In this document: in pieces, positions 2,830 to 23,820 of the stretch | Position numbering within the stretch: the first letter of the stretch is position 1 | How the letters are laid out: each line of letters starts with the position of its first letter | Origin: a virus | Length of the DNA stretch: 23,820 nt | Virus record (IMG/VR): IMGVR_UViG_3300035145_000377 | Coordinates: 1-23,820 of that record | Strand: one strand, 5' to 3' | Program-made: the position numbers and the translations under genes | The notes under the pieces: model-generated | Databases searched by the model: none | What the model was told of the DNA's origin: nothing | Seen by the model: the letters and a program-made list of their open reading frames with translations, nothing else

Positions 2830-5829
2830 ATGGAAGAAAAGAGTAGATTCCAGAAAGCTTTAGATTTTATTGTACCTGGAAGAGGTAAAGAAGAAGAAAA
2901 AGCTCAATCAAATTACAATCAATTATTTGGCAACGATGCCTCTATATATGGTTATAACACTTCATCAGGATTTTGGGAATCTAATAAATTAAAAGAAATA
3001 GGTGATGGTTCAGCAAACTCTGCTGTAACCGCATGTTTAAATGTTTTAGCAACATCATTTTCAGAACCTCCTTTACAAGTTGTAAAAATAGATAAAGAAT
3101 TTGGCGATAGAGAAATATCTGTTGACCACCCATTAGCACAATTATATAGAAGGCCTAATCCATTTATGTCTTCTAACTTATTATCACATTATATAGTTTT
3201 AGCTTTAAATACATTAGGTGATGCTTTCCTTTATAAGAATAGAGATGCTAGAGGTCAAGTAGTTGAACTTGTACCACTTATGCCACACCTAGTAGAAGTA
3301 AGAGGAAATGAAGATACTTTAATTACTCATTATGATTACTACCTTTATGGTAAAGGTGAAAAGATTGAACTTCCAGAAAAAGATGTTGTCCACATCCGAC
3401 AAGGAATAGACCCTAATGACCACAGAAGAGGACATGCTCCGCTTAAAACAGTTCTCCGTGAAATATTAGGTGATGAAGCTGCTGGACAATATGCAGCTGC
3501 ACTGCTCAACAACATGGCTGTACCTGGTGTAGTACTTACACCAAGAAATGATGGATATGGTGGTCCTACTAGAGAAGAGGCCGAATCAATACTTCAAATG
3601 TATAAAGAGAAATTTGGTGGTGCTAATAGATTTGCACCTATGGTTTTATCTGGTGCTATGAATGTAGATATTGTTTCTTTCTCACCTGACCAAATGAAAT
3701 TAGGTGAGTTAAGAAGATTACCTGAAGAAAGAGTATCTGCAGTTTTAGGAGTCCCAGCAATTCTCGCAGGCCTTGGGGCTGGATTGGACGCGGCCACTTT
3801 TAATAATACTAAGGAATTAAGAGAATTTTTTACAGAACAAAAACTTGTTCCAATGTGGAGAACAGTAGCTAATGAATTGACACATCAATTATTAGTTCCA
3901 GACTTTAAAGATGTTTCACTTAGAGCAGAATATGATATCAACTCTGTTAGAGCATTACAACCAGATATGGACAATATGTACAAAAGAGTAAATATGGGTG
4001 TATCTGGTGGTTGGATAACTATTGGTGAAGCTAGACAAGTTGTAGGTTTAAGTTCTGATGATAAACATGATGTTTACTTAAGACCATTAAATATGATTCA
4101 AGTAGATACAAATGGTAATGCAATTTTAAATGATATGCCAGAAGCTAATAGACAACAAGCTCAGAATGAACAAGAGGGTAATCCATTAGCTGCTGCTAGT
4201 TCTAACATTGAAACAGAACAAAAAGATTTATTAGCTGGACAAAATTATCCTGTTGAAAATCCTAGAGCAGATAGAATACAGCAAAACGAAGAACCTCGTA
4301 ATGAGGAAAAATATATTGCAAAAATGCCTAATGGTTCATACTGTGTAATAAGTCATGACACAGGAAAAGTAATTAAATGTTTTGATACAGAAAAAGAAGC
4401 TGAAAAGTTTTTAGGTAAAAAAGAAGCAGCACCAGCAATGGCTGATACTTACACTACAAGAGAAGAAGCTATAGCAAGAGCAAAAGAGTTAGGTTGTGAT
4501 GGTTATCATGTAGTTGATAGAGGACCAGCTGGTAAATTTTATATGCCATGCGATAGTGAAGAAGATTATGGTAAGTTAGTAAAGTCTGCACACCCAGGTC
4601 GAAATACTTCTAGCAATATGTGGATGTATGACACAATAGAAGCTGCTGAAAGAAGAGCAAAAGAAATTGGTTGCGAAGGTTATCACGAACACGAAGTAAG
4701 AGGAACTACTTACTATATGCCTTGTGCAAGTCATGAACAAATGGAAAGGTCAAAAAAATCTTACCTTGTTGATATAATGGAAGAACTCAAAGTAAGTTTA
4801 GAAGAAGCAGAAGTTATTATGGAATCACAATTTAGTATTGAACCAGAAAACGTAAAAGAAAAACCTAAAAAAGATAGAACAAATTTTCCAAGTCCAGGAG
4901 ATGATAAACAAGTATCAATCTCAAATTCAAAATACAAGCAATTTCCATATGGGTACGCTAAAGACCTAAAAGAAAATTGGCCTGAGATTTGGAGAAGAGC
5001 TGGTAATGGAGGTAATCCTCCTACATCGTTTACAGGAAATGATGCATTTGCTAATTGGACTAAATATAAGTCTGGTGATAGAAGTGAATCAGTTCTTAAC
5101 TGGGTTCGTAGAAGAGAACGCTACATGGGAAGACATCAAGGTAACAACCGACTTAATGGTACTATTGCCAATATTAAGTGGGGTGGTGTTTCTAACATAG
5201 GCGTATCTGCTATGAAAAAAATAGTTAACGACCAAAAGAAAGTAGTTCGTTCTAGGAGAAAAGCCGCTGCTGAACTAGCAAACCAAATGGCTGATGATAT
5301 TGCATTAAAAGCAATATCTGGAAGAATAAAGAAAATACTTGCAGAAAAAGCAAGTAATCATAATTCAAAAAATCCTAGACACAAAACGAATGCTAGAACT
5401 TTGGCCGCAGTTTTTAATAGAGGTGTCGGTGCTTACAGAACTAATCCAGGTTCAGTTAGAGGTAATGTAACTTCAGCTGACCAATGGGGATTAGCCAGAG
5501 TAAATGGGTTCTTACACGCTTTGCGTACAGGACGATTTAAGAGAAAACCTTATGACCAAGACTTGCTACCTTCTTCCCACCCTCTCTCATCTAAAAAGAG
5601 TGGAGAGAAAGCAGCTAGTGTTAGAGTAGGACAATCTGTTAGTTGGTCTATAAATAAGGACCCAGACCCACCCTCAACAGTACATGGAGTAGTTACATCT
5701 GTAAGTGATGGAGAAGCCACTATGCAAGTATATGCAATACTAGAAAGTGGAAAACATAAAAAAACCGATAGAAAAGTAACAATGCCAGTTTCTAAACTCA
5801 CTGTTATTAAAGACATAAAAGACGAATAA
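2830..5829 (+). CDS. Portal protein with long multi-module C-terminal extension
   Basis: Residues 1 to about 430 are an HK97-family portal: an N-terminal clip/wing region with RRPNPFMS (107-114) and the LPEERVSAVLGVPAIL stem region (297-312). It forms the DNA channel of the head. Portals of this family usually end near 400-500 residues, but this one continues to 999. The extension holds a small module with CVISHDTGKVIKCF (505-518), two tandem copies of a GC[DE]GYH...YMPC unit (about 543-585 and 601-642), a helical/acidic linker, an aromatic-rich module around W717 to K803 (EIWRRAGN, RRERYMGRH, IKWGG), a segment with GVGAYRTNPGS and QWGLARVN (865-892), and a final all-beta, SH3/Tudor-like end (930-995). 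Such modules are ones I associate with phage head accessory or protease polyproteins, which is memory-based. The frame is open throughout with even codon use, so it is a real fusion or polyprotein. Proteolytic processing by the downstream protease is inferred. Confidence 0.9.
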   Translation: MEEKSRFQKALDFIVPGRGKEEEKAQSNYNQLFGNDASIYGYNTSSGFWESNKLKEIGDGSANSAVTACLNVLATSFSEPPLQVVKIDKEFGDREISVDHPLAQLYRRPNPFMSSNLLSHYIVLALNTLGDAFLYKNRDARGQVVELVPLMPHLVEVRGNEDTLITHYDYYLYGKGEKIELPEKDVVHIRQGIDPNDHRRGHAPLKTVLREILGDEAAGQYAAALLNNMAVPGVVLTPRNDGYGGPTREEAESILQMYKEKFGGANRFAPMVLSGAMNVDIVSFSPDQMKLGELRRLPEERVSAVLGVPAILAGLGAGLDAATFNNTKELREFFTEQKLVPMWRTVANELTHQLLVPDFKDVSLRAEYDINSVRALQPDMDNMYKRVNMGVSGGWITIGEARQVVGLSSDDKHDVYLRPLNMIQVDTNGNAILNDMPEANRQQAQNEQEGNPLAAASSNIETEQKDLLAGQNYPVENPRADRIQQNEEPRNEEKYIAKMPNGSYCVISHDTGKVIKCFDTEKEAEKFLGKKEAAPAMADTYTTREEAIARAKELGCDGYHVVDRGPAGKFYMPCDSEEDYGKLVKSAHPGRNTSSNMWMYDTIEAAERRAKEIGCEGYHEHEVRGTTYYMPCASHEQMERSKKSYLVDIMEELKVSLEEAEVIMESQFSIEPENVKEKPKKDRTNFPSPGDDKQVSISNSKYKQFPYGYAKDLKENWPEIWRRAGNGGNPPTSFTGNDAFANWTKYKSGDRSESVLNWVRRRERYMGRHQGNNRLNGTIANIKWGGVSNIGVSAMKKIVNDQKKVVRSRRKAAAELANQMADDIALKAISGRIKKILAEKASNHNSKNPRHKTNARTLAAVFNRGVGAYRTNPGSVRGNVTSADQWGLARVNGFLHALRTGRFKRKPYDQDLLPSSHPLSSKKSGEKAASVRVGQSVSWSINKDPDPPSTVHGVVTSVSDGEATMQVYAILESGKHKKTDRKVTMPVSKLTVIKDIKDE

Positions 5830-9068: not shown

Positions 9069-9722
9069 ATGGCTTTCTGTACTGCTGCTGATGTAGAAAC
9101 ATTTGCTTTAATAGATTTTCATTCAGACTTAGAGACGCATTTAACAAATAACATAATACCTCTAGTTGATGACGCAATTAGAGAATACTTAGGCATTGAC
9201 GTTGATTACAACACTTATACTGAAACAATGTCTGGTAATCAAACCAAAGAATTATTTCTAGAACAAGGTCCTGTATTATCTGTTACTTCTATAACTGAAG
9301 ACGACACAACATTGGAATATGGCAATGATAAAGATTTTTTGTGGTATGAAAATGGAAGAATAAGAAGAATTGGAAGTAGATGGTCTTTTGCTAGGCCTGA
9401 TAACATAACAGTTTCATATACTGCTGGATACGATACTGGTGGAGGAACTGGAAGAACATTACCTATACAATTTAAATATGTAAGCGCTAGAGCATCAGCT
9501 AGAATGTTAGAATCAGCATTAGTTATGTCTGCACAACAGGAAGCTGGTGAAATTGTCGCACAATCATCAACACAAGTATCAAACTTTACAGCAGCAGATT
9601 CAGAATCAATGGGTGATTATTCTATAAGTTATGTAGGAAATATTGGTATGAATTCTGTTTCTATATTGTCTGGTAGCGACTTACAAATAATAGGAAAGTT
9701 TAGAAAACGGTTCTTTTTATAG
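9069..9722 (+). CDS. Head-tail connector (Ad1, gp6/gp15-like)
   Basis: This 217-residue protein shows the adaptor layout: an N-terminal helical half beginning MAFCTAADVETF, with a helix around LVDDAIREYLGI (32-43), then beta segments VLSVTSIT (69-76) and ITVSYTAGYD (113-122), and helices after LPIQFKYVSARASARM (131-146). The xVxSIT...D and V-SYTAGY patterns are typical of HK97 gp6 and SPP1 gp15-type connectors, which form a ring beneath the portal. It is the first gene of the head-tail joining block. The C-terminal 60 residues (Ser-rich, then FRKRFFL) extend past the usual core. Confidence 0.85.
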   Translation: MAFCTAADVETFALIDFHSDLETHLTNNIIPLVDDAIREYLGIDVDYNTYTETMSGNQTKELFLEQGPVLSVTSITEDDTTLEYGNDKDFLWYENGRIRRIGSRWSFARPDNITVSYTAGYDTGGGTGRTLPIQFKYVSARASARMLESALVMSAQQEAGEIVAQSSTQVSNFTAADSESMGDYSISYVGNIGMNSVSILSGSDLQIIGKFRKRFFL

Positions 9723-9734
9723 TAAAATAAGTCT

Positions 9735-10352
9735 ATGCCAAATAGACAAGCACCTACACCAGAAGAAGCACTTCAATTATTTAAAAAATATCCTGAAAGA
9801 TTACTTCGTGAATGGTCTGATGAGTGGGGTGTATCTATAGAAAGAGTTCGTCAAATTAGACATGAATCTGGCATTGGTGCAGTATTTAAGATAAATTATG
9901 ATGTAGTAGAAACTGTTGCTAAAAGAATAGAAAATGGTCAACATACTTTAACAAGTAGAAGCATGTATAAAGATTTACCTGTTAGCTATGATGCTTTTGC
10001 TACTTGGATAAGAGATGATATTGATGCCGCACAGAGAATACAAGAAGCACAACAAAAGTATAAACTTTCAAAATTAAATCCAACAAATAAGACATGTTCA
10101 ATATGTAAATTATTAAAAGATGTTTCAGATTTTCCTAAAAGTCAAAAATATGCTGATGGGTATAATAAGTTTTGTTCACCTTGTTTAGAAAATATAAAAA
10201 ATAATATACCAAAAGAAAAGTCTAAAAAGACTTGTTTAATGTGTAAAAAAGAATTGTCTATTGGTAGCTTTGACGCTAAGTCTTATTTTTGTAAAAATTG
10301 TCGTTCAAAAAGTAGAAGAGCAAAAAGAGCTAGAGACCTCAAAACACTATAA
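9735..10352 (+). CDS. Putative DNA-binding protein: sigma-region-4-like HTH plus two zinc fingers
   Basis: Residues 22-47 carry a helix-turn-helix whose recognition part, GVSIERVRQIRHESG (32-46), closely resembles sigma-70 region 4.2 (RVRQI signature). A second helical region follows (about 55-105). The C-terminal half holds two treble-clef-like Cys4 units, C121/C124/C147/C150 and C167/C170/C186/C189; the first has the C-x2-C...F...DGY...C-x2-C pattern common in phage zinc fingers and HNH-associated proteins. The tail is strongly basic (RSKSRRAKRAR). No HNH catalytic His/Asn set is seen. It sits between connector genes, an unusual place for a regulator. It has no Shine-Dalgarno, but TAAAAT (9723-9728) lies six bases before the ATG. 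A transcription regulator or DNA-end-binding protein is inferred. Confidence 0.7.
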   Translation: MPNRQAPTPEEALQLFKKYPERLLREWSDEWGVSIERVRQIRHESGIGAVFKINYDVVETVAKRIENGQHTLTSRSMYKDLPVSYDAFATWIRDDIDAAQRIQEAQQKYKLSKLNPTNKTCSICKLLKDVSDFPKSQKYADGYNKFCSPCLENIKNNIPKEKSKKTCLMCKKELSIGSFDAKSYFCKNCRSKSRRAKRARDLKTL

Positions 10353-10381: not shown

Positions 10382-10732
10382 ATGGTTGGCCAAATTCACA
10401 AAAGATTATTTATTGATAAAATTAATGTCCAAAGAATATCTGCTTCAACAGTAGATGAACGTGGAATAGAATCACAATCCTGGCAAAGCCATTTGACTGG
10501 TGTAGATTGCAAAATAGTATCTAGTGGTACCTCTGAAGCAAAAGATGGTAGAAATACAATATTAGAAAACTTTACTGTTTATATTCATGGTGACATAGAT
10601 ATAAAGGCTAATGATAGATTGCAAGATTACACAGATAATAATTTATATCATGAAATAGATGCAGTAAGAAAGTCTCACAATAGAAGTGGAGGAGTAGTAG
10701 GTCTTATATTGTCGACTCACATATTTGAATAA
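10382..10732 (+). CDS. Head-closure (head-tail joining) protein
   Basis: This 116-residue protein fits the SPP1 gp16 / HK97 gp7-like stopper family: an early strand (RLFIDKINVQRIS, 8-20), a Trp in ESQSWQSHLTGVDCKI (30-45), YIHGDIDIKANDRLQD (67-82) with the characteristic Asp-Arg turn, then a closing strand with Gly-rich loop (SGGVVGLIL). It seals the connector channel and binds the tail. It follows the connector gene with one unrelated gene between. No clear ribosome site; TAGTCT (10370-10375) lies six bases before the ATG. The TAA overlaps the next ATG by one base. Confidence 0.75.
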   Translation: MVGQIHKRLFIDKINVQRISASTVDERGIESQSWQSHLTGVDCKIVSSGTSEAKDGRNTILENFTVYIHGDIDIKANDRLQDYTDNNLYHEIDAVRKSHNRSGGVVGLILSTHIFE

Positions 10733-13700
10733 TGGACTACGCTCCTAGCAATAGTTTAAGAGAACGAGTAAAAGTTCCTAAGTTTGGTTTAATAGCTGGT
10801 GATGGAAAAGTAGGTTTATTTAAATCACTAAAAGGACTTAAAGGTGCAGACCTAAGATACGCAGTAGGTTATAACATGTCTACCCTTAGGGCTTTTGGTG
10901 TTAATATTCCATCTGCAATAGTATCGCTACCTTATGATTTTCAACAAGCAAAAAATACATTTGACAGAGGTGTAAAATTCTTTCAAGGTGGAGGTATCCA
11001 ACAAATTGGTAGACGTGCTGGTGTTTTAACATTCGCTAGTAGAGTTGCACCAAAATTAAGAGCTAATCTTATACCTAGAACTAGCAGTAGTATATTTAAT
11101 CGTTACATGAACATTTATGCAGGTTCAATTATTCAAAAAGAAATTATAGGTCCTATATCAAGAGGTAAAAGTAAAAAAGATATTATAGAAGGTATATGGA
11201 ACCCTGAAATAGTAGAAAAAGTTGCACAAAAAGAATTTTCATCAAACAAGTCAGATAACTTCTTATACAAATGGCAACTAGCTACATACACTAGAGCAGT
11301 TGCAGGAGCTCCTGACCCTTTAAGAAATAATGCTTTTATTCAAGCAAAACACTTTAAAGAAAAAACTGGTAAAGACATAAAAAGATTTGATGCAAGGTAT
11401 GGAATAGTAAAAGATAATGGTCAGCTTTTATATCAAAGTGATAGAGAGTTTGACCAACTTATGTCTACTATTGACCAAATGAGTTTGCCACAAGCAGAAG
11501 CCACAGTCAAAGCAACAGTAGATTCAATGATGATGGAATACATGGCAGAAAAAATTGCAGGTGAACATATAATTGGTGCAAAATCATATAACCAAACTCA
11601 TGCTATTGCAGACAAAGATAGGAAAAGAGCAGTTTTACAATATCTTTCAAATTACTCAGGAAGTAGAACAGCATTTGAATCTGGTTCTGATGGTATGAGA
11701 CCAGAATTAGATACAGGTGGTTCTTTAGGTCCATTTGGAGCTAATAAAGTTGAAGTAGTAACTAATGAAAAAGGTGACATTGTTGGTTACACAACTAAAA
11801 AGCTAAGAACAGCTACAACTAAATTTATGGGATTAGAAGATGCATTAATTAAAGATATGCAAATGATAAAAAGTACTTTAGGTAAACAGTTTGGTGTTAT
11901 ATCAGTTGAAGCAGAAGAAGAAATAAATTTATTAGCTAATCAATTAGGACTGAAAACACCACAAGGAATAATGAATATAGGTGCAGAAACATTGCACGAT
12001 ACAGACACATTGATTGATAGAGTTGTAAATTCTATTATAAATATAGGTACATACAATAATCCAAATATAACTTTACAAAGACCAGTAGAAAAAATGGCTG
12101 ATAATAACCAAAGAGATTTGTTAGCAATTCTACAGTTTGCAAAAAAAATGCAAGAAAAAGGATTTGGTTCTTTTGCAAGAGCTTTAATTACTGCAATAGC
12201 TCCTGATATGGGTGGTAGAGATATTAAAACTGGAAATCTAATTAATAAAATGTCTAAAGCTTTAACACCTAAACAAGCTTCTTCTAATAAAAAAGTTAAT
12301 AGAGGTGGTAAGGACGTATTAAAAAATAAGGAAGGTTGGCATCAACCAATAGAAAAAATACTAGATGGTAACTTAGAAGAAAATCCTGACAAAATATATG
12401 CTCAATGGTGGAATGCAAAGAATAGTATTGCATCACTTAGAAATGATGCTCACAAAAGAGTCGCCCAATCATTTTTAGATGGAGGAGGGTTAAGTATATC
12501 AGGAAATGCAAGAGCTAATGCAGGTGTAGATTTCTTAGATGTGGTTTATGACCCACAAATGTTAAGTTACAGTTTTTTCCAAGAAGAAGTAGCAGTTGGA
12601 AGAAGCGGTAGAAGTAAATTAAAAATATATGACAATTTAGAAAAACATGACAGATTTCTAAAAAAAATGTATGCAACAAAAAACGCAAAAAAGTCAATGG
12701 AAGACCCTACAAGCTCAAATTTTATAGGTCAAGATGCAGATTTAAAACAACTTTTAAAATCATATGGATATGATGTAAATCCTAATGTAGGAGTTTTAAA
12801 AACCAAAGGTTTACTTGGAATTCCTATGTTCGATGTAGTTCACCCACTTAAAAAAGAAATAGAAGAAAAAATTAGAAGAAAATTAAATATGGGTGACAGC
12901 ACGCAAGCAGAAAATAACAGAGTTGCCAAAATTAAAAAATTAATGAATAGTGTTTTAAAACCTAATATGACAAGTCAATTCAGACATGGTTTAGACCATT
13001 TAAGCAGAATACCTTCTGATTTAAAAGGTATAGATAACTCATTAACAGCACTAGCTGTTGATGCAGATGCTAAATATCAAATAGACCACATTAAGTCTGT
13101 GACTACAAATCAAGGATTAATTAACGAAAGAAGAGCTAAGAGAGGTAAAAGAGGAGTTGGAAGTTATGACGATAATTATGTTCCATCGAAAATAGATATA
13201 GCAGAATCTATTCATATAATACCAATACATCAAAAAGGACGAGCATTCTTAACAGCTGAAGTTGTAGCTGGTACTTCACAAGCTAAGGTAGGTTTTGCAG
13301 ATGCAGTAAGAGACATAACAGCTATAGAGTATGGTGGTCCTGCTACGGACTCAAGTGGTAACCACCATAAAAGAACTGATGGTATGGTTTATCTTCCTAG
13401 TTTATTTTTTACCAGAGCATGTGAAGAAGCAGCAGCTTATTTAGGTTTTACAGATACAGGTAGAGTTTTAGGATTTGATAAAACACTGCAAAGAAAAGTT
13501 GGAGTAAAATTTCGTTTAGGTAAAGGACAAATGAAATCTAGCTTAAGGTCTTTTAATCAAAAAAAAGATAAAGCTGAAAGAGACATGAGACAAAGAAGAT
13601 TAAATGCTTTAGTTAAATATAGAAAAGATTTAAGAACAAATTTAATTAAAAAGAATAGAGGTTCTGTTGATAGAAACTTTAGATTAGCTAATCAAAGAGC

Positions 13701-16032
13701 TTTAGAAGCATTTTTTCAAGGAATGAGTTCATCTGCTGATTCAGCTGATAGATATATAGACGCAGCTACCTTATTGTCTGGAACATCAGGAGAAATATCA
13801 GATGTTTTACCAGAAGGTATGGGTTTAGGAATGACTGCATTTGGTAACTTAAGAGAAACTAGAAGAACAGTTAATTATGGATTCCAAGGATATGCAACTT
13901 CTTTAACTGAAAAATTACCCCATGAAAAATACTTTCAAGATAATGCTTTAGCAAAAATATATAAAAGAACAGTTTATGGTGATGATAATTTGCCACAAGT
14001 ACAAGAAATAGTTGGAAGACTAGGATTTGCAAAAGTATTTGACCCAGCTCTATATAAACAATTAATTAATGCTGGTGCAACAATAGAAGCTGCTAACTAT
14101 TTAAAAAGAGCAAAGATAGTTGCAAAAGGTGGACACCCAGGTGGCTATGAAGGATTGTCTATACAAAACTTAGGAGACTTTGAATTCTCAGCTGCAGCTT
14201 ATATGGGTAATGATGATTTAAAAACTATGCTTGGTACAAACTCTATGGAACTTAGAGCCAACGTTTTTCAAACACTTGGCTTAGGTAAAATAAATACAAA
14301 TCCTCAAACAGGACAAAAAACATTTGAGTGGTCAAAAAAGGATAAAACTAATTTAGTTGGTTTAATAACAAGAGGTAGACAAAGTACATTTAGTAATAAC
14401 CCACTGTATAAACTAATAGATGGAATTTCAGGACCTGGTGCTCAAGGTAAATTAACAGCTCATTTTTATGAACATTTAAGAGAAACATTGTTTAATAATT
14501 TAACAGGTTTATCTCCTGTTGAGAAAAGACAAATTATGGACAACCTTAAAGGACAAGCTGGAGCTGTTGCAAGAAAAACAGTTAGCGCAATACAAACTGT
14601 AATGACAAAACATTCAGTAGGTGGCAATTTTACTAATTTTGAAAATATGGCTATTGCTTTAGAAAAATCAATGCGGTTACTTGAATTGTCATTTGCAAAC
14701 GTTCTTGACAAAGCATACTTTTTAAGATTTATTATGGAACAACAGGGACAAGGTGGTGCTGCATTATCACAGCTAATTGGTGATGATGGAAAAATAAAAC
14801 CTATATTTAATGTTAAAAGCAGTGGTGAATTAAATGATTTAGCAAACTTAGATGTAAATATAGAAATCAATGAAGAAGGTATAGCTTCAGTTTTAGCAGA
14901 TGCTAACTGGGATGATACTGTAATAAGCGAAATAGAAGCTGATTCAAGAAAAAAGAAAACATTATTAGAAATGAATGGTCAAGGACAAGCTTCTGCAACA
15001 TTTGGTGGTGCTGGTGCTAGTTTGAAGGGTGCTTTAGAAGCTGCTGGTTTTTCTATAAGTGAAGACCTAGGAACAACTCAAACAGGTATTGACCAACATA
15101 CAGATTGGGTTAATGACATACTAAGAGCTGCAAAAGACGATATAAGTCAAGCATTTATTTTACCAAGAGGTCAGGGAGCTTTAGAAGATTATTTAAATCA
15201 TTTACAAAAAAGAATACCTATAGAAAAATCTATTGGTGTTGTTGGTGGTGGTCCAAAAAATAAAGCTGAAGCATACGATTCTAAAAGAAGATGGCATCAA
15301 ACTTCTTCTGGTGGAATGCAAAAATCATTTGAATTTATGGAAGATGCATTATTTGACACTAGAGTTTCTAGAACAGGTAAAACTGCCGCTGATAAATTTA
15401 TAAAAGATAAAATATTTATGTCTGTTGCTATACCTGAATTGACACACGACACTAAAACAGTTGCATATGGTAATTTATATGATGAAAGTGCGATTGTTCC
15501 AGGACGTGGTAGTAACCATGGTAACTTTATGGAAAACCCAGCATTTAAATATTCTGAAGGAGACAGGGTCCAGACTCACATGAGCCCAGTAATGTTTGAA
15601 CAATTAATAGGTAACCTTGCTCAATACAAATCTGAAAGTTGGTTTTACGATTTCTTAAACACATTGTATGTAAATGCTAATGCTCAAGGAGTTTTGGGTT
15701 CTTCATCTGCAAACGCAGAAACACAACCATATTTTGTTGAATTAGTACAGATGTTGTTAAATGTTACTGGTATAGGTTTTGACTTAAGAAAGCAAGGTGG
15801 AGGTGTATATCCTCCTAGTGGAGCAGTAAGATTAGGCCCTCACCATGCTAAACAAATACAAGAATATTTAAGGCAGAGGTCAAGAATTACTATAGGTAGA
15901 GTAAGAACTGATTACAACGAAGCAGTTAGAACTAAAATAAACAGAAGAAATCAGCAAAATCCTAGAAGAGGTAGTGGTGGTTCTAGAAATTGGACTTATG
16001 GTGCTAGTGATGGTAACTGGTTTGATACTTAA
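10732..16032 (+). CDS. Giant neck-position protein (1766 aa) with HK97 gp10-like segment
   Basis: The frame is uninterrupted for 1766 codons and starts on the previous stop (TAATG), so it is coupled to the head-closure gene. In siphoviruses this slot usually holds a neck protein of 120-180 residues (HK97 gp10 family). Residues about 826-905 recall that family: beta segments SIHIIPIHQKG and VGFADAVRDITAIEYGG, then a Pro/His-containing loop and LPSLFFTRACEEA, matching the 'VEYGT ... PF..PA' ending of gp10-like proteins. The 800-plus residues on each side are largely helical, charged and unrecognised. They hold no signal peptide, no clear membrane segment and no catalytic motif that I can see. 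The C-terminus is basic and Gly/Ser/Asn-rich. Possible roles are a neck or whisker protein, an internal head protein injected with DNA, or a polyprotein cut by the prohead protease. Confidence 0.8.
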   Translation: MDYAPSNSLRERVKVPKFGLIAGDGKVGLFKSLKGLKGADLRYAVGYNMSTLRAFGVNIPSAIVSLPYDFQQAKNTFDRGVKFFQGGGIQQIGRRAGVLTFASRVAPKLRANLIPRTSSSIFNRYMNIYAGSIIQKEIIGPISRGKSKKDIIEGIWNPEIVEKVAQKEFSSNKSDNFLYKWQLATYTRAVAGAPDPLRNNAFIQAKHFKEKTGKDIKRFDARYGIVKDNGQLLYQSDREFDQLMSTIDQMSLPQAEATVKATVDSMMMEYMAEKIAGEHIIGAKSYNQTHAIADKDRKRAVLQYLSNYSGSRTAFESGSDGMRPELDTGGSLGPFGANKVEVVTNEKGDIVGYTTKKLRTATTKFMGLEDALIKDMQMIKSTLGKQFGVISVEAEEEINLLANQLGLKTPQGIMNIGAETLHDTDTLIDRVVNSIINIGTYNNPNITLQRPVEKMADNNQRDLLAILQFAKKMQEKGFGSFARALITAIAPDMGGRDIKTGNLINKMSKALTPKQASSNKKVNRGGKDVLKNKEGWHQPIEKILDGNLEENPDKIYAQWWNAKNSIASLRNDAHKRVAQSFLDGGGLSISGNARANAGVDFLDVVYDPQMLSYSFFQEEVAVGRSGRSKLKIYDNLEKHDRFLKKMYATKNAKKSMEDPTSSNFIGQDADLKQLLKSYGYDVNPNVGVLKTKGLLGIPMFDVVHPLKKEIEEKIRRKLNMGDSTQAENNRVAKIKKLMNSVLKPNMTSQFRHGLDHLSRIPSDLKGIDNSLTALAVDADAKYQIDHIKSVTTNQGLINERRAKRGKRGVGSYDDNYVPSKIDIAESIHIIPIHQKGRAFLTAEVVAGTSQAKVGFADAVRDITAIEYGGPATDSSGNHHKRTDGMVYLPSLFFTRACEEAAAYLGFTDTGRVLGFDKTLQRKVGVKFRLGKGQMKSSLRSFNQKKDKAERDMRQRRLNALVKYRKDLRTNLIKKNRGSVDRNFRLANQRALEAFFQGMSSSADSADRYIDAATLLSGTSGEISDVLPEGMGLGMTAFGNLRETRRTVNYGFQGYATSLTEKLPHEKYFQDNALAKIYKRTVYGDDNLPQVQEIVGRLGFAKVFDPALYKQLINAGATIEAANYLKRAKIVAKGGHPGGYEGLSIQNLGDFEFSAAAYMGNDDLKTMLGTNSMELRANVFQTLGLGKINTNPQTGQKTFEWSKKDKTNLVGLITRGRQSTFSNNPLYKLIDGISGPGAQGKLTAHFYEHLRETLFNNLTGLSPVEKRQIMDNLKGQAGAVARKTVSAIQTVMTKHSVGGNFTNFENMAIALEKSMRLLELSFANVLDKAYFLRFIMEQQGQGGAALSQLIGDDGKIKPIFNVKSSGELNDLANLDVNIEINEEGIASVLADANWDDTVISEIEADSRKKKTLLEMNGQGQASATFGGAGASLKGALEAAGFSISEDLGTTQTGIDQHTDWVNDILRAAKDDISQAFILPRGQGALEDYLNHLQKRIPIEKSIGVVGGGPKNKAEAYDSKRRWHQTSSGGMQKSFEFMEDALFDTRVSRTGKTAADKFIKDKIFMSVAIPELTHDTKTVAYGNLYDESAIVPGRGSNHGNFMENPAFKYSEGDRVQTHMSPVMFEQLIGNLAQYKSESWFYDFLNTLYVNANAQGVLGSSSANAETQPYFVELVQMLLNVTGIGFDLRKQGGGVYPPSGAVRLGPHHAKQIQEYLRQRSRITIGRVRTDYNEAVRTKINRRNQQNPRRGSGGSRNWTYGASDGNWFDT

Positions 16033-16076: not shown

Positions 16077-16547
16077 ATGCCTACAACTAATCAACCTGTA
16101 CCACCAGACGCAGAAATTATATTTAGACAATTCTTACTTAGTAAGAGTGATGTAACTGATTTGGTTGGTACAAGAATAGCTACGAGACTTCCAAGAGATG
16201 CTGAAATGCCTTTTGTTACAATTCAAAGAGCTGGTGGTATATTAGTAAGACCCACTAGCCAAGTTCATGTTCAATCAGCAATTATACCTGTACAATGCTT
16301 TGCTGGTCAATGGGGTGGAGATGGAAACACATCAGCACCAGATTATGGTAAAGCTATGGAAGTAGCTAATGCTATTGTCAAAGTATGCTTTAATTCAGAA
16401 AACGAATATATCACTACATCTGAATCAACTACTAGAGCAAAAATTTATGGATTTGATATGCCACAAATGCCAACAAGAGTAACAGAAGCTGCAACAGGCT
16501 TAGGTAGATATGATGTTGGTATTTCTATGATTTATAGAGCAGTTTAA
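16077..16547 (+). CDS. Tail terminator / tail completion protein
   Basis: This 156-residue protein matches the general plan of DUF3168-type tail completion proteins (HK97 gp10-next gene, lambda gpU-like). It has an N-terminal helix (DAEIIFRQFLLSKSDVTDLVG), then RLPRDAEMPFVTIQRAGG, a beta strand VQSAIIPVQCFA, a helix with AMEVANAIVKVCF, and a closing strand GLGRYDVGISMIYRAV. It caps the tail tube and joins it to the head stopper. The order closure-neck-terminator-tail tube agrees. No Shine-Dalgarno but a consensus -10 lies eight bases upstream. It ends at an AAATACCAC box. Confidence 0.8.
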   Translation: MPTTNQPVPPDAEIIFRQFLLSKSDVTDLVGTRIATRLPRDAEMPFVTIQRAGGILVRPTSQVHVQSAIIPVQCFAGQWGGDGNTSAPDYGKAMEVANAIVKVCFNSENEYITTSESTTRAKIYGFDMPQMPTRVTEAATGLGRYDVGISMIYRAV

Positions 16548-16928: not shown

Positions 16929-17588
16929 ATGGCTACATATACAAGTGGTGCAATTAATGAGGTATTAGTTGGTACTGGTGTTCTTTATGTTGCAGACAGA
17001 ACTGCTTCAGGATTAGCCTACCCAGGCGATGACGGTTCAGGCAACTGGGAAGCAGTTTCAACTGCTTCAGCAGCTTGGAGAGACATTGGATATTCTGAAG
17101 ATGGTTGGACTCTCGAAATGGATAGAACTTTCGAGGACATTCTAGTCGCAGAAGAAATAGACCCAATTAAAACCATAAAAACTGCTCAGGAAGCAAGATT
17201 AATGGGTGAACTTTCACAAGCTTCACTCGCAAACCTTTCCGTAGCAATGGGACAAATTGACAGTTATGTCAGCGAAGACGATTCAGACTTTGCAGCAGGA
17301 TATGACGTTGTCAAAGCTCCTATTACTGACTCTTTCAGCGAAATGGCAGCATTGCTAATCGCAGAAGGACCAGCTGGTGCAGATAGACATGTTCAAATGC
17401 CTAGAGTAGTATCAGTAGGTGCATTCTCAATGCAACACGCAAAGGCTCCACAAAAAGTGGTTATTGCAACTGAGTTTAAGTTGTTAGTCCCTGATTCAAC
17501 ATTCAACGTTGGAGCAACAGGTGGTAAAAATCACCTCTTCAAGATTGTTGATAACACTAACGACTCAACAACATTTGATGTCAACTAA
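16929..17588 (+). CDS. Major tail tube protein
   Basis: This 219-residue protein has the siphovirus tail tube pattern: an N-terminal NEVLVGTGVLYVADR strand, a loop with YPGD, WRDIGYSEDGWTLEMDR (50-66), the FEDILVAEEIDPI segment (68-80) and a helix-rich middle (RLMGELSQASLANLSVAMGQ), followed by beta strands (VVSVGAFSMQHAKA, KVVIATEFKLLV). It polymerises as hexamer rings around the tape measure to form the non-contractile tube. AGGAG (16917-16921) lies seven bases before the ATG. Hairpins lie on both sides (16883-16900 and 17581-17595), as for the capsid gene. No C-terminal Ig-like domain is present. Confidence 0.88.
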   Translation: MATYTSGAINEVLVGTGVLYVADRTASGLAYPGDDGSGNWEAVSTASAAWRDIGYSEDGWTLEMDRTFEDILVAEEIDPIKTIKTAQEARLMGELSQASLANLSVAMGQIDSYVSEDDSDFAAGYDVVKAPITDSFSEMAALLIAEGPAGADRHVQMPRVVSVGAFSMQHAKAPQKVVIATEFKLLVPDSTFNVGATGGKNHLFKIVDNTNDSTTFDVN

Positions 17589-18342: not shown

Positions 18343-21300
18343 ATGGCTAAAGGCAGCACATCTGCGTTTTCTCTGAAAGGTGATATACAACTTTACTTTT
18401 CAGACAAATCATTAAAAGCAGCTAACAAACAAATACAGCAATCTGCTGCTCGTATACAGGGACATAGCGAAAGTGTAAAAAGAACACTTGGAAATATGGC
18501 TGTATCAGCAGGTTCTACATTTGGTTTAGTAGCCGCTGGTTTTGGTGCTGGCGCTGCAGCTGCTGCAAAATTTGAAGAGTCATTCGTTGCTGTTAAGAAA
18601 ACTTTAAACATAGCAGGAGACACAAGAAAAGTTGAAAGAGGATTTCAACAAATTGCAAAATCATTATTAGATTTAACTAAAATCGCTCCAGTCACCGCTG
18701 ATGAATTAAACCAAATAGCATCTGTAGGTGGACAGTTAGGTATAGCTGCTAGCGATATAGTAAAATTCACACAAGTAATTCAAAAATTAACTATTGCAAC
18801 AAATATGGGTGCAGAGCAAGCTGCACTAGCAATGGCAAGACTTCAAGAAATAACAGGTAGAGGTGTAGATGAATTAGATAACTTGGGTGCTACATTAGTA
18901 GATTTAGGTAACAACTTTGCTGCAACAGAATCTGAAATTACTAATGCATCACTCCAGATTGCAACAGCGACTTCACAGATTGCTGGAAATCTTAATAACG
19001 CGGCTGTAGATGCACTTGCATTCTCGACTGCCCTAAGAGCAATAGGTCAGCCAGCACAAGCAGGTGCAACTGCGATTGTAAGACTTATGACAGAAATGAG
19101 CAAAGCTGTCACACAAGGTGGAGAAAAATTAGAAATATTTGCAACTACTGCAGGTCTTTCAGTAGGAGAGTTTCAAAAACTATTTGAATTAGATTCTACA
19201 AAAGCAATAGCTATGTTTGTAAGAGGATTAGACCAATCCAACATAGCAGGAATGACAAACATAGAAGTCATGGAAAGACTTGGCTTAAGTCAAGTTAGAA
19301 CTAGAAAAGCAATACTTGCATTATCAAAAGCTAATGAAACATTATTTAAAGCAATAGACACAGCCAATAGTGCATTTATTGAAAACAGAGCATTAAACGA
19401 AGAAGCAGCAAGAAGATACGACACTTTATTTTCTAAAATACAACAACTTAAAAATATTGCTCAAGCAGGTTTAATTGATTTTGGTTTAGAGTCTAAAGGT
19501 TTAGATTTAGCAAAAGACGGAATGGAAGGATTGCTAAACATAACACAACAGCTAGCTGACAACATTGACTTTATGGTCAAAAGAATTATACCTATTGTTG
19601 GTGTGGCTACAACTATTAGAGGAATATTTGGTGTATTAAATAAAAACACAATAGAAATGGCTAACAACATGGGTCTATTTGATGAAGCTATGCAAGGTAT
19701 TAAATCAAGTAGAGGTATATTAGAAAATTTAGGTTTTGCTGTAGGACCTGCACCAAGCATGGAAGAACTACAATCGTTTGGAATGGCTGGATTAAGAGGT
19801 TCACAGTTAAACACAGCGGATAAACTTTTAGAAAGAGTGCCTGGAATTATAGGTAAAATATTTAATGTAACAACTGGTTCAGCTAGAAGGGAACAAAACC
19901 AAAATAGAGTAAATTTCTTTACACAAGCTAGAGGTGCTGATGCTTATATGCAAGGTGTGGTACCTCAAATAAAAATGGATAAACTTGTAGATGTTTATGC
20001 AATACAAGAAACTATTGCACAAGCTTTAGGACAAGATGTTAACTTTGAAGATATACTTAGTTCTGATAATATTTTATCTCACCTAATTAATACAAGAGAA
20101 GACTTAATGTCTCAGTTAACAGGAAGAATGGACCCAACTGGCGATGATATTATTGCTAGAAGTGATATTCAACTTTCAGATTTTAGTCAAGCTGACCAAG
20201 TAAGAGCAATGAATGAAATGGTTGCTGAATACATGCAAAGAATGTTAAACAGAGCTTTATTTGTGCAACCAGATTTTTACGACAATGTGTTTGCTCAAAT
20301 AAACCAATCTTTATTTAACTTATTTATTAAATTAGAAGGTTTCTTTGGAAGTGACTTAAAAGAGGCAATGGCTAGAACACTTCAGGTTGTTAAAGGTTCA
20401 ATTTTTGGAAGAACAAACCCTATGGCAGTATTGGGCAAATATGCAAATGCTGCAAACATATCACCTATTGCATTAAGTCAAGCTCCATCAGCAGACCCAG
20501 AAGGTATAGGTGGTTTTGGTATGCCTGAAGGAGCACAGGAAGGTAATGTTACAATGTCTCGTAATTTTGGACAGGGTGCAAGAAATTTATTAAGAGACAT
20601 ATTGATTGGTAATGCTGACGATAACATAAAAAACATAATAAATGCCTCAAAATTAGATAAGAAAGGATTAATAAAATACGATAGTAAAACCATAATGGCA
20701 GTACTAGAAATAAGAAGAAAATTCTTTAGTGCAGTAGTAGAGCCTATGGCCGATACAGACTTTATAGTACCTGTTATTGAAAGTGTAGGTGGTGGTAAGA
20801 ATCTAGATGCATTAAGAAATATTATAGATAATACTGCATTTGAGCCAGAAGATGTTATGAAACTTGTAGATGAAACAGGCTTTAGGTATCCTGGCTCACA
20901 AGATGTTCCTGCTATATTCCAAGAATTACAAAATTTATCTACAGAAGAATATTTAAAATTTTTCAATCAAGAAGGCCTAGTAGGTAAAGGTGTAAATCTA
21001 TTTAAAGGATTAGGCTCTAGTGCAGCTTCTAAAATAAAAGGAATGGGCTCTAAGGTTCTAAAGTTTGGTGCAGATAAAATAGCTTTTGCAAAAGATGTAC
21101 AAGAAGTAATTTCCGAAATTATAGGTGAGAAAGTTTTAGCTGACTTAGAAGTTTTATTTAATAATGATAATTTTGGTATAGAAGCTGCTTTAAACAAAAT
21201 GACTAAAAATGAACATCTTGATGCAAGGTTTGCTGAAAAAGATTTAATATCAACAAAAACAGCTAGTACTTTACAACTTATAACAACAAACATACAAAAG

Positions 21301-23820
21301 AGATTTCAAAATTTAATGAAAGAAGTTAGTTTCTTTTTTGAATCTTTACGTTTTTCTATTACAGAAAAATTGCAAGATTTAGGATTGAAAGACTCAATGG
21401 TCAAAAAAACAATACAAGCTAGTGCTAATACTGTAACTGGAAGACCAAGCATAGGAGGAATACCAATAGAAAAAGCTGCTCAAATTGCTGCTCTAAAAGC
21501 ATTTGATGTTGGTGGTGCTGTAGATACCAAATTATTAGAAGAAGCTGTCTTTAACAATATGGATGCAACAAAGATTGTAAAAGATACAGCAGGTGGAGGA
21601 TATAGACACAAACTTGACTACTCCGACCCATATCAAGTTTTAAGAGATATGGGATTCATAGGTGATTATCAAGGGGAATTTAACGCATCAGGTAAAAGCT
21701 ATGACTTACCTGTAGAATTAGACCCACTCACTGGTTTACCAACAAGAGATGGTAAACAATTTAAGTTTAGAGATTTCTTAGACCCTGATTCTCCATTTAA
21801 AGCTGGTTCACAGATAGGACAAATAAAGCTTCCTAAGTCTGGTGCAAAAATGAATGTAGCAGGTAAGAGCTTGCTCGAAGTAATGCGTATTGATGAAATA
21901 CAAGCTGCTATAGAAGAAAGTGGAAAAGACTTAGAAGTTACAGCAGAAAATTACTTTAAATTAATGGGTAAAACTATTGAAGAGGCAGTACCAGAAGATA
22001 CATTAGTTGAAATATTTAGAGGCGTATCTGTTCCTAAAGACAGAATGGACCCTGAAAGAGCAGCAAGAGCTCAAATAAACGATTTAGATTGGATAACTAC
22101 AAGTAGAAGTACTGCAGATTTTTATGCAAAAACTAATACAGAGAAAAAACTAGCACAAGGTTTAGATTATGAAGAGCTGATAATGTCTCAGCAAGTTAAG
22201 GCATCAGAAATATTTTACAATACTTCTGCTGAGGTTTCTGCTGAAAACTTAACACTTGTAACAGAGGGATTCAGAGAGCAGTATAAAAAGATAACACAAC
22301 AACTTGGTTTTGGAAAAACTATGATTCCAGAAGATGTCAACTTGACATTAGGCAAATATACAGAAGGTTTTAATACCTTTATTGCAAGTATAGGCGAATC
22401 ATTAGATAGCCTAAAGAAATCAGCATCAGGATACATGAAATCTTTAGGAATAGATATGCCTAAATCACTAGATAAGGTTTCAGAAAAATTTGGTAATTTA
22501 GGTGACAAAATATCTGAAAAATCAAGACCAGGTATAGAAAAATTATTAGCACTATATCAAGGTAGTTACTTTGGTGCAGAAGCTAAGCGAGAAAGATTAA
22601 TAGCTAAACAAGAAAAAGCTTTAATGAAAGCAAATAATGCTCTTACACTTTATATAAAAAGGATGATTGATACAGCAGAATTAGCTGATTCATACATAGA
22701 TGATATTATATCTTCAGACTTATCACCAAAAGCTATAAACTTACAAAACTTAGGTGCTAGAAGTGACAAAGAACAATTAGACGATTTACTAGATTCAATT
22801 TATGGTGAGACAGGTGAAGGCTTCTTCGGTAATAGAGCTAGAAAGAGAAGAAGGTCATTAGCTGCTGGTGGTTCATTAGCAGAAGTAAACAGTGTTATAG
22901 CCGCAGCTTCTGAAATAAAAGATGCAGATTTTACTTCACAATATGTAACAAGTGGTGGCAAAACAATAGAGATTAATAAAGGAATGGTCAAATCATTTAA
23001 AGCTGTTGCTGCATCAATGGGTAAAGTAAGAGCTCTTATAGCAGCATTTACAGCAAGTATCAGTTTACTAGGTGTTGCTTACCTTGTAATAGCACCATTA
23101 GTAAAACTATTTGCAAAATTTGGAGCTCAGAGCAGAGGACTAAATCAGTTCACAAATAGCTTAAGAGAAGCAACACAAGGAATGTTGGAATATAGAACTG
23201 AGTTATTCAAACTAACACAAGCACAAGAAATATTAGAAACAGAATCTAAAGTATTTGGTTTTGAAGGTAGTGAAATGGAAGGCACTCTTAATGATTATAT
23301 TAAGAAACAAACTCAAGCCATTGAGTCACAAAGAAGACAGATGGCTGAGACTCTAGGTGCTTCATATATAGAAAATATTGCAGAAAATGTATTTAGTGGT
23401 AGTGCTGGTGTACAAGCTGGTTCTTATACAGATACAATGATTGAAGCTTTGGCTAGAGGATTCAAAGTAGATGAATCTGAAATAAGAAAGAGATTAGGAA
23501 GACCTGTTGGTGAAACATTATTTGCAATATTAGAAGGTGAAGAGCTTCCAACATTTGATAAATTACTAGAAGGAATGCTCTTTGATAAATCTGATACTAC
23601 AGATGATAATGTACTTTCAGCTTTCTTTAGTGGAGCTACAAGAGAAATGTTAGAGTCTGGTGGGGTTACTCAAGGAGTAGAACAAGGATTTAATTATTTC
23701 AATGAATTATTTAGCGATGCATTAACACAGAGTTTCCAAAATATTACTTTACCACCAAATGTTAAAGACGGTTTATATGGAACTGAATATGTAGAGGATA
23801 TGTATGAAAAATATTCAAAT
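18343..23820 (+). CDS. Tape measure protein (3' partial, at least 1826 aa) with ART-like segment
   Basis: The ATG at 18343 opens a frame with no stop to the window end, giving 1826 residues so far. The N-terminus has a TP901-type tape measure core: helices with Ala/Gly-rich SAGSTFGLVAAGFGAGAAAA (54-73), AKFEESFVAVKK (75-86), APVTADELNQIASVGGQLG and AIGQPAQAGATAIVRLMTEM (232-251). A hydrophobic segment lies at 407-434 and a clear membrane-like helix at about 1567-1588 (SLLGVAYLVIAPLVKLF). Residues about 1215-1300 resemble an ADP-ribosyltransferase: EIFRG (1223-1227), then WITTSRSTADFYA (1250-1262) and downstream acidic residues. It sets tail length and is thought to exit into the cell envelope at infection. 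Only a weak AGGT precedes the start. Its length suggests a long tail, roughly 0.15 nm per helical residue. Confidence 0.9.
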   Translation, partial: MAKGSTSAFSLKGDIQLYFSDKSLKAANKQIQQSAARIQGHSESVKRTLGNMAVSAGSTFGLVAAGFGAGAAAAAKFEESFVAVKKTLNIAGDTRKVERGFQQIAKSLLDLTKIAPVTADELNQIASVGGQLGIAASDIVKFTQVIQKLTIATNMGAEQAALAMARLQEITGRGVDELDNLGATLVDLGNNFAATESEITNASLQIATATSQIAGNLNNAAVDALAFSTALRAIGQPAQAGATAIVRLMTEMSKAVTQGGEKLEIFATTAGLSVGEFQKLFELDSTKAIAMFVRGLDQSNIAGMTNIEVMERLGLSQVRTRKAILALSKANETLFKAIDTANSAFIENRALNEEAARRYDTLFSKIQQLKNIAQAGLIDFGLESKGLDLAKDGMEGLLNITQQLADNIDFMVKRIIPIVGVATTIRGIFGVLNKNTIEMANNMGLFDEAMQGIKSSRGILENLGFAVGPAPSMEELQSFGMAGLRGSQLNTADKLLERVPGIIGKIFNVTTGSARREQNQNRVNFFTQARGADAYMQGVVPQIKMDKLVDVYAIQETIAQALGQDVNFEDILSSDNILSHLINTREDLMSQLTGRMDPTGDDIIARSDIQLSDFSQADQVRAMNEMVAEYMQRMLNRALFVQPDFYDNVFAQINQSLFNLFIKLEGFFGSDLKEAMARTLQVVKGSIFGRTNPMAVLGKYANAANISPIALSQAPSADPEGIGGFGMPEGAQEGNVTMSRNFGQGARNLLRDILIGNADDNIKNIINASKLDKKGLIKYDSKTIMAVLEIRRKFFSAVVEPMADTDFIVPVIESVGGGKNLDALRNIIDNTAFEPEDVMKLVDETGFRYPGSQDVPAIFQELQNLSTEEYLKFFNQEGLVGKGVNLFKGLGSSAASKIKGMGSKVLKFGADKIAFAKDVQEVISEIIGEKVLADLEVLFNNDNFGIEAALNKMTKNEHLDARFAEKDLISTKTASTLQLITTNIQKRFQNLMKEVSFFFESLRFSITEKLQDLGLKDSMVKKTIQASANTVTGRPSIGGIPIEKAAQIAALKAFDVGGAVDTKLLEEAVFNNMDATKIVKDTAGGGYRHKLDYSDPYQVLRDMGFIGDYQGEFNASGKSYDLPVELDPLTGLPTRDGKQFKFRDFLDPDSPFKAGSQIGQIKLPKSGAKMNVAGKSLLEVMRIDEIQAAIEESGKDLEVTAENYFKLMGKTIEEAVPEDTLVEIFRGVSVPKDRMDPERAARAQINDLDWITTSRSTADFYAKTNTEKKLAQGLDYEELIMSQQVKASEIFYNTSAEVSAENLTLVTEGFREQYKKITQQLGFGKTMIPEDVNLTLGKYTEGFNTFIASIGESLDSLKKSASGYMKSLGIDMPKSLDKVSEKFGNLGDKISEKSRPGIEKLLALYQGSYFGAEAKRERLIAKQEKALMKANNALTLYIKRMIDTAELADSYIDDIISSDLSPKAINLQNLGARSDKEQLDDLLDSIYGETGEGFFGNRARKRRRSLAAGGSLAEVNSVIAAASEIKDADFTSQYVTSGGKTIEINKGMVKSFKAVAASMGKVRALIAAFTASISLLGVAYLVIAPLVKLFAKFGAQSRGLNQFTNSLREATQGMLEYRTELFKLTQAQEILETESKVFGFEGSEMEGTLNDYIKKQTQAIESQRRQMAETLGASYIENIAENVFSGSAGVQAGSYTDTMIEALARGFKVDESEIRKRLGRPVGETLFAILEGEELPTFDKLLEGMLFDKSDTTDDNVLSAFFSGATREMLESGGVTQGVEQGFNYFNELFSDALTQSFQNITLPPNVKDGLYGTEYVEDMYEKYSN

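Follow-up and report, generated by a model that had tools for sequence, protein, structure and literature searches.

An uncultured phage lineage, probably actinobacterial, possesses a neck plug-like protein whose length has risen from some 150 residues to a maximum of 1,774. Part of this enlargement consists of hundreds of residues inserted into the portion of the fold that is expected to face the viral DNA. The gene was identified in a window of 23.8 kb, which is an entire IMG/VR virus record with a siphovirus head-neck-tail module aboard. A WhiB gene in the window suggests that the host of this phage is actinobacterial. The core of the giant protein is homologous, through intermediates, to ordinary tail-completion proteins (TCPs), the Ne1 proteins that include lambda gpZ, HK97 gp10, SPP1 gp16.1, and 80alpha gp51. 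The gene probably encodes the TCP of this phage, enlarged roughly tenfold and situated inside the neck channel or tail lumen. Its location in the channel and the role of the approximately 1,500 added residues are suggested by analogy with known TCPs.

TCPs are required for infectivity and have been called elusive for half a century. To our knowledge, they are nearly universal among long-tailed phages of neck type 1, and the only TCP that has been located in the channel is a protein of 115 residues. Published lengths are 56-231 residues (PMC4362835) and 112-255 residues (PMC11099176). The 1766 residues of the giant protein lie outside the range of 56-255 residues, which is descriptive only. No report of a giant TCP was found in the open-access literature text.

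The giant gene and its neighborhood

The frame at 10732-16032 on the plus strand is open and intact, begins with ATG, and encodes 1766 residues. Its ATG overlaps the stop codon of the head-closure gene by 1 base (TAATG). The initial annotation had described one 5.3-kb frame that fills the neck slot upstream of the tail terminator, and both the frame and its named neighbors were confirmed (Table 1). It is the sole gene that separates head closure from tail terminator, in the order adaptor, head closure, giant protein, tail terminator, tail tube, and tape measure. This is the gene order in which Ne1 is found. A tail chaperone gene is also among its neighbors, and a gene for an S78 prohead protease lies close by.

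Table 1. Features of the giant protein and of the adjacent genes in the window.
Feature	Position	Strand	Evidence
Head-tail adaptor (Ad1/HTCP)	9069..9722	+	phrog_442 E 1.2e-22; conserved in relatives
Head closure / head-tail adaptor (Hc1-like)	10382..10732	+	phrog_615 'head-tail adaptor' E 9.2e-9; precedes the giant gene with a 1-base overlap
Residues 1-176, conserved basic helical N-terminal domain	10732..11259	+	Conservation peak; common to 315-residue L154, hhalign 98.2%, E 3e-14
Residues 177-194, probable first helix of the Ne1/gp10 fold, ending at invariant Pro194 of the 'AP' motif	11260..11313	+	P194 invariance; L154 alignment; AF2
Residues 195-814, insertion within the Ne1 fold (620 residues)	11314..13173	+	Insertion lengths per relative; AF2 low confidence, mostly helical; dN/dS
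Residues 815-909, remainder of the Ne1/gp10 fold (NYVP..ESIH, IEYGG, LPSLFF..A)	13174..13458	+	Core HMM; AF2; fold match of contiguous homologue
Residues 910-1766 and stop, C-terminal extension (857 residues)	13459..16032	+	No known domain; lengths and dN/dS across relatives
Tail terminator (Tc1/THJP)	16077..16547	+	phrog_123 E 3.7e-7
Major tail protein (weaker call)	16929..17588	+	phrog_476 E 6e-4; phrog_2175 (Ig-domain protein) E 6e-11; position
Tape measure protein, cut by window end	18343..23820	+	phrog_13339 E 5e-66

The whole protein had no match in Pfam, PHROGs, the PDB, or cultured phages, and tblastn searches of cultured phages with the protein and with two cores also found none. No membrane segment was found. 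An intein or homing insertion in the gene was considered and rejected, as the Pfam search gave no such domain. Similarity to the tape measure and internal duplication were likewise set aside, since no such similarity or repeats were found. The giant proteins contain 0-2 Cys each and are nearly all basic overall; the tape measure is Cys-free.

The earlier statement that the protein is as large as the tape measure was wrong, because it used the tape-measure gene that is cut by the window end. The open tape-measure frame in a close relative (L006) has 3147 residues. Tape-measure frames of the related phages span about 1250 to 3150 residues, so tail lengths in the group may differ greatly. Near residues 1200-1260 of the tape measure, a stretch, IFRGVSVP...DWITTSRSTADFYA, resembles an ADP-ribosyltransferase motif by eye; Pfam gave no support for it. 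The lengths of the giant protein and the tape measure correlate (Spearman 0.67, n=21), but in lineages that are not independent. Within the window's clade the two lengths are uncoupled, and the correlation was set aside as evidence for both of these reasons.

The portal protein (2830-5829, 999 residues) has two DUF3721 matches (E 4e-15) after the portal domain and a weak DUF5824 match near residues 791-904. Its C-terminal extension of about 450 residues is unusual and is shared by L154, a sister of the giant lineage. An Endonuclease VII/HNH-like gene (9735-10352) is located between adaptor and head closure. It is not there in L022, L027, and L033, where adaptor and head closure nearly abut; thus, it looks like a free-standing homing endonuclease.

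Slot proteins of the relatives and homology to Ne1

A capsid protein search gave 80 loci, and two further scans gave more. The neck slot was a single frame of 1047-1774 residues in all 32 dereplicated loci that have both neighbors and an intact slot, the window's own gene included. A chance open frame is therefore excluded. The exceptions to an intact slot were two contig ends (L008 and L020) and one contig with an in-frame stop (L120). This stop (L120:6252-6254) lies within the insertion of the giant gene and homology runs on in the same frame, so it is either an error or a broken gene. The giant proteins are 12-46% identical to that of the window, and the capsid proteins are at least 69% identical to their queries. 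Conservation along the giant protein peaks at residues 26-200 and 801-925. The second peak is the gp10-like segment of the initial annotation, where ITAIEYGG and LPSLFFTRACEEA were both found as described.

The size of the slot protein forms a series of 1047-1774, 315, 187, 175, 139, 124, and 109 residues. The sister lineage L154/L155 has a protein of 315 residues. In L154, the N-terminal domain of the giants is directly followed by ...TTAAPKKTGNLRKSI..., a canonical Ne1 motif, and the protein matches phrog_5 weakly (E 0.001). More distant phages have ordinary slot proteins, of 175 residues in L161 (phrog_5 E 2e-11) and 187 residues in L103 (phrog_5 E 5e-7). The slot proteins of L171 and L177, assigned by position, have 109 and 139 residues, and that of Streptomyces phage Chymera has 124. 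Chymera gp11 is an ordinary Ne1 in the same gene order, and the Chymera adaptor is related to that of the window (24%); unlike the giant protein, gp11 has neither insertion nor extension.

Neither the window protein nor its core matched phrog_5, PF04883, or the PDB directly, and when the core was compared by profile with known Ne1 sequences, either one or ten of them, no significant similarity emerged. Membership in the family thus rests on the intermediates (L154, L161, and L103) and on the fold. The fold was examined with a contiguous homologue, residues 112-300 of the L142 protein, modeled from an alignment of the family's own members, including L154 and without published Ne1 sequences. The model had a pLDDT of 75. 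Foldseek against viral models (BFVD) returned a 'Putative tail component' (E 3e-4, probability 1.00) and an 'HK97 gp10 family' entry (probability 0.99) within the first four matches. The list also has entries of phiL7 P10 and Bernal13 gp12; their lengths of 155 and 121 residues fit these proteins, which are located between the head-tail joining and tail terminator genes. The TM-scores were low, 0.31-0.56 among the better matches, and this counts against the TCP reading. Foldseek of the contiguous homologue against the PDB gave no match.

The suggestion that the protein is a gp10-like neck protein was thus supported by synteny, the homologue series (1766, 1047, 315, and 175 residues), the Foldseek matches of the contiguous homologue, and the lack of a second candidate. 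It had been considered that another gene might encode the neck protein; neither the window nor any of 14 related giant-slot records, which are 29-65 kb in length with none rated complete, has another phrog_5 match. The giants share with the Ne1 superfamily (phrog_5 and PF04883; HK97 gp10, SPP1 gp16.1, lambda gpZ) the slot between head closure and tail terminator, a helix, an AP..TG loop with a beta-hairpin, an E-F/Y-G-G/T motif, a C-terminal helix, and a single copy per genome. They differ in their length of 1047-1774 residues, a fold broken by 11-633 residues, an extra N-terminal domain, and a C-terminal extension of 571-957 residues. Lambda gpZ is a TCP that is likewise described as interrupted, by an additional beta domain at the apex of its fold (PMC11661146). 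However, gpZ has 192 residues in total, and the insertion of the giants reaches 633 residues and is mostly helical in the model.

A fold split by a long insertion

The initial annotation had placed a gp10-like middle between two giant appendages. The gp10-like part stood and the anatomy did not: the Ne1/gp10 fold is split by a 620-residue insertion rather than being a central island between two flanks, and only residues 910-1766 are a true terminal appendage. The profile of the N-terminal half of the giants matches L154 (probability 98.2%, E 3e-14) and stops exactly at the AP motif, window residues 193-194. The L154 sequence ...TTAAPK, directly followed by KTGNLRKSI, aligns to the region of residues 177-194. 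Pro194 is invariant across all aligned sequences. The spacing from Pro194 to the core is 11-15 residues in the clade of L142, L149, L074, L052, and L068, 537-633 residues in the window's clade, and 251-362 residues elsewhere. Because of the end of the L154 match, the invariance of Pro194, and these insertion lengths, the first helix of the fold is placed N-terminal to the segment first noticed, most likely at residues 177-194, and residues 195-814 are a loop insertion. The core HMM of the 815-909 region matches every relative whose frame extends that far, and G868, G869, and F892 are nearly invariant.

In the AF2 model of window residues 1-960, confidence was high mainly in two stretches, 177-200 and 811-905. 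The helix at 177-191 had a pLDDT of about 90 and residues 815-909 mostly 79-90. The two parts, 177-194 and 815-909, would pack as one domain. The insertion between them had low confidence. Foldseek of this 960-residue model against the PDB gave chance helical matches only, which is expected because the domain is split and the model is of low confidence. The long helix, loop with beta-hairpin, and C-terminal helix of Ne1 were present in the contiguous homologue; for the split domain of the window, confidence is local only.

In seven pairs of relatives, dN/dS was 0.11-0.26 for the N-terminal domain, 0.18-0.44 for the insertion, 0.04-0.33 for the core, and 0.28-0.43 for the C-terminal extension. 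The extension is the fastest-evolving part in most pairs and also the most variable in charge. As every region is at 0.04-0.44, the added parts are maintained by purifying selection, though less strictly.

In the capsid tree, all giants fall together with moderate support (90/85) and separately from the small-slot sisters, and the no-insertion clade is nested among the insertion-bearing clades. In the tree of adaptor and tail terminator, the no-insertion clade and the long-insertion clade are each separate (100/100). The disagreement suggests exchange between head and neck genes, and it concerns the L142, L149, L074, L052, and L068 clade. With L154 as outgroup, the neck tree tentatively gives gain of the C-terminal extension, then of the insertion, then enlargement of the insertion; the order is tentative because the L154 branch is long.

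Possible placement in the virion

In Staphylococcus phage 80alpha, the TCP gp51, whose structure is solved, is a monomer wholly inside the neck. Through N55, Y78, F81, and R87, a loop of gp51 covers the end of the DNA, with N55 contacting a DNA phosphate, and three tape-measure N-termini are paired with the helices and hairpin of gp51 (PMC11661146). The giant core aligns with gp51 over the motif WTGNLSRNI...AYSGFLEFGT, and N55 falls in TGNL, immediately past the insertion point. The proteins differ in that gp51 has 115 residues and its DNA-stacking Y78 is lost in the insertion-bearing clades. The no-insertion clade and L154 have Tyr at this position, and the insertion-bearing clades mostly have Asp there, adjoining a conserved Arg (window 13174-13458). 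The DNA contact may thus have changed, and this counts against the reading as a channel TCP.

By this comparison, the core would sit inside the neck or tail channel, with its loop against the packaged DNA end and its helices against the tape-measure N-termini. The insertion, after the first helix and before the residue that matches N55, would point toward the DNA and the head, and the N-terminal domain and C-terminal extension would face the other way, into the tail lumen. The extra residues could keep the end of the DNA in register with the tape measure and control when and where the DNA exits. When SPP1 lacks its TCP, its DNA is released outside the cell (PMC11099176); thus, DNA retention and routing would be the likeliest role of the giant TCP. 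It would leave with the tape measure at infection, and such joint ejection is possible. A more specific arrangement, in which the TCP is a third major channel protein with the insertion as a protein plug or DNA-end clamp toward the portal and the extension as a shorter second tape-measure-like protein in the lumen, ejected before the genome, is conceivable, with a low probability.

A channel of about 30 A would have difficulty accommodating a 620-residue insert beside the DNA end, which counts against the channel reading. The core could instead be a TCP docked at the neck, with insertion and extension outside as a collar, whiskers, or neck decoration. About 1,500 extra residues are sterically difficult in the lumen, and the fast divergence of the giants relative to the capsid fits exposed surfaces. 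In addition, T5 p143, assigned as a TCP, is located outside the tube at the side of the tail tip (PMC11784142), so a channel location is not guaranteed. We consider this placement unlikely: gp51 is entirely inside, no carbohydrate-binding, Ig-like, or fibre domain was found in PHROGs or Pfam, and few Cys, basic charge, and a largely helical model are closer to channel proteins than to fibres. It is similarly doubtful that the extension serves as cargo for ejection, acting on the host as an effector fused to a TCP that travels with tape measure and DNA. The rapid evolution and variable charge of the extension and the scarcity of Cys would agree with cargo; its presence in all giant relatives is as for a structural part, and no enzymatic or toxin domain was found in Pfam or PHROGs.

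A polyprotein cut during maturation, also proposed in the initial annotation, found no support and appears improbable. A prohead or other protease would separate the N-terminal part, the neck domain, and the C-terminal part, and the very large size and nearby S78 gene are in its favor. However, the gene is cleanly split in none of the 32 loci (one further contig, L120, has the in-frame stop), and there are no internal repeats. The N-terminal region and core form one fold that spans the putative junction and that cleavage within the insertion would disrupt. Least probable is replacement of the TCP by an unrelated large protein whose gp10 likeness is convergence or chance. It would account for the lack of a direct sequence match to Ne1 families, but the 315-residue intermediate bears both the family N-terminal domain (E 3e-14) and a canonical APKKTGNLRKSI motif, and the fold search with the family core gives neck-slot proteins first.

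An enlarged TCP in the channel is the reading we favor. In a widespread lineage the TCP core is retained and as many as about 1,500 residues are added, some of them inserted where the protein is predicted to touch the DNA. The lineage supplies natural variants in which each added part is present or absent. Should the protein lie in the channel, the view of what the neck and tail contain would change, and the protein would be a target big enough for cryo-EM and mass spectrometry.
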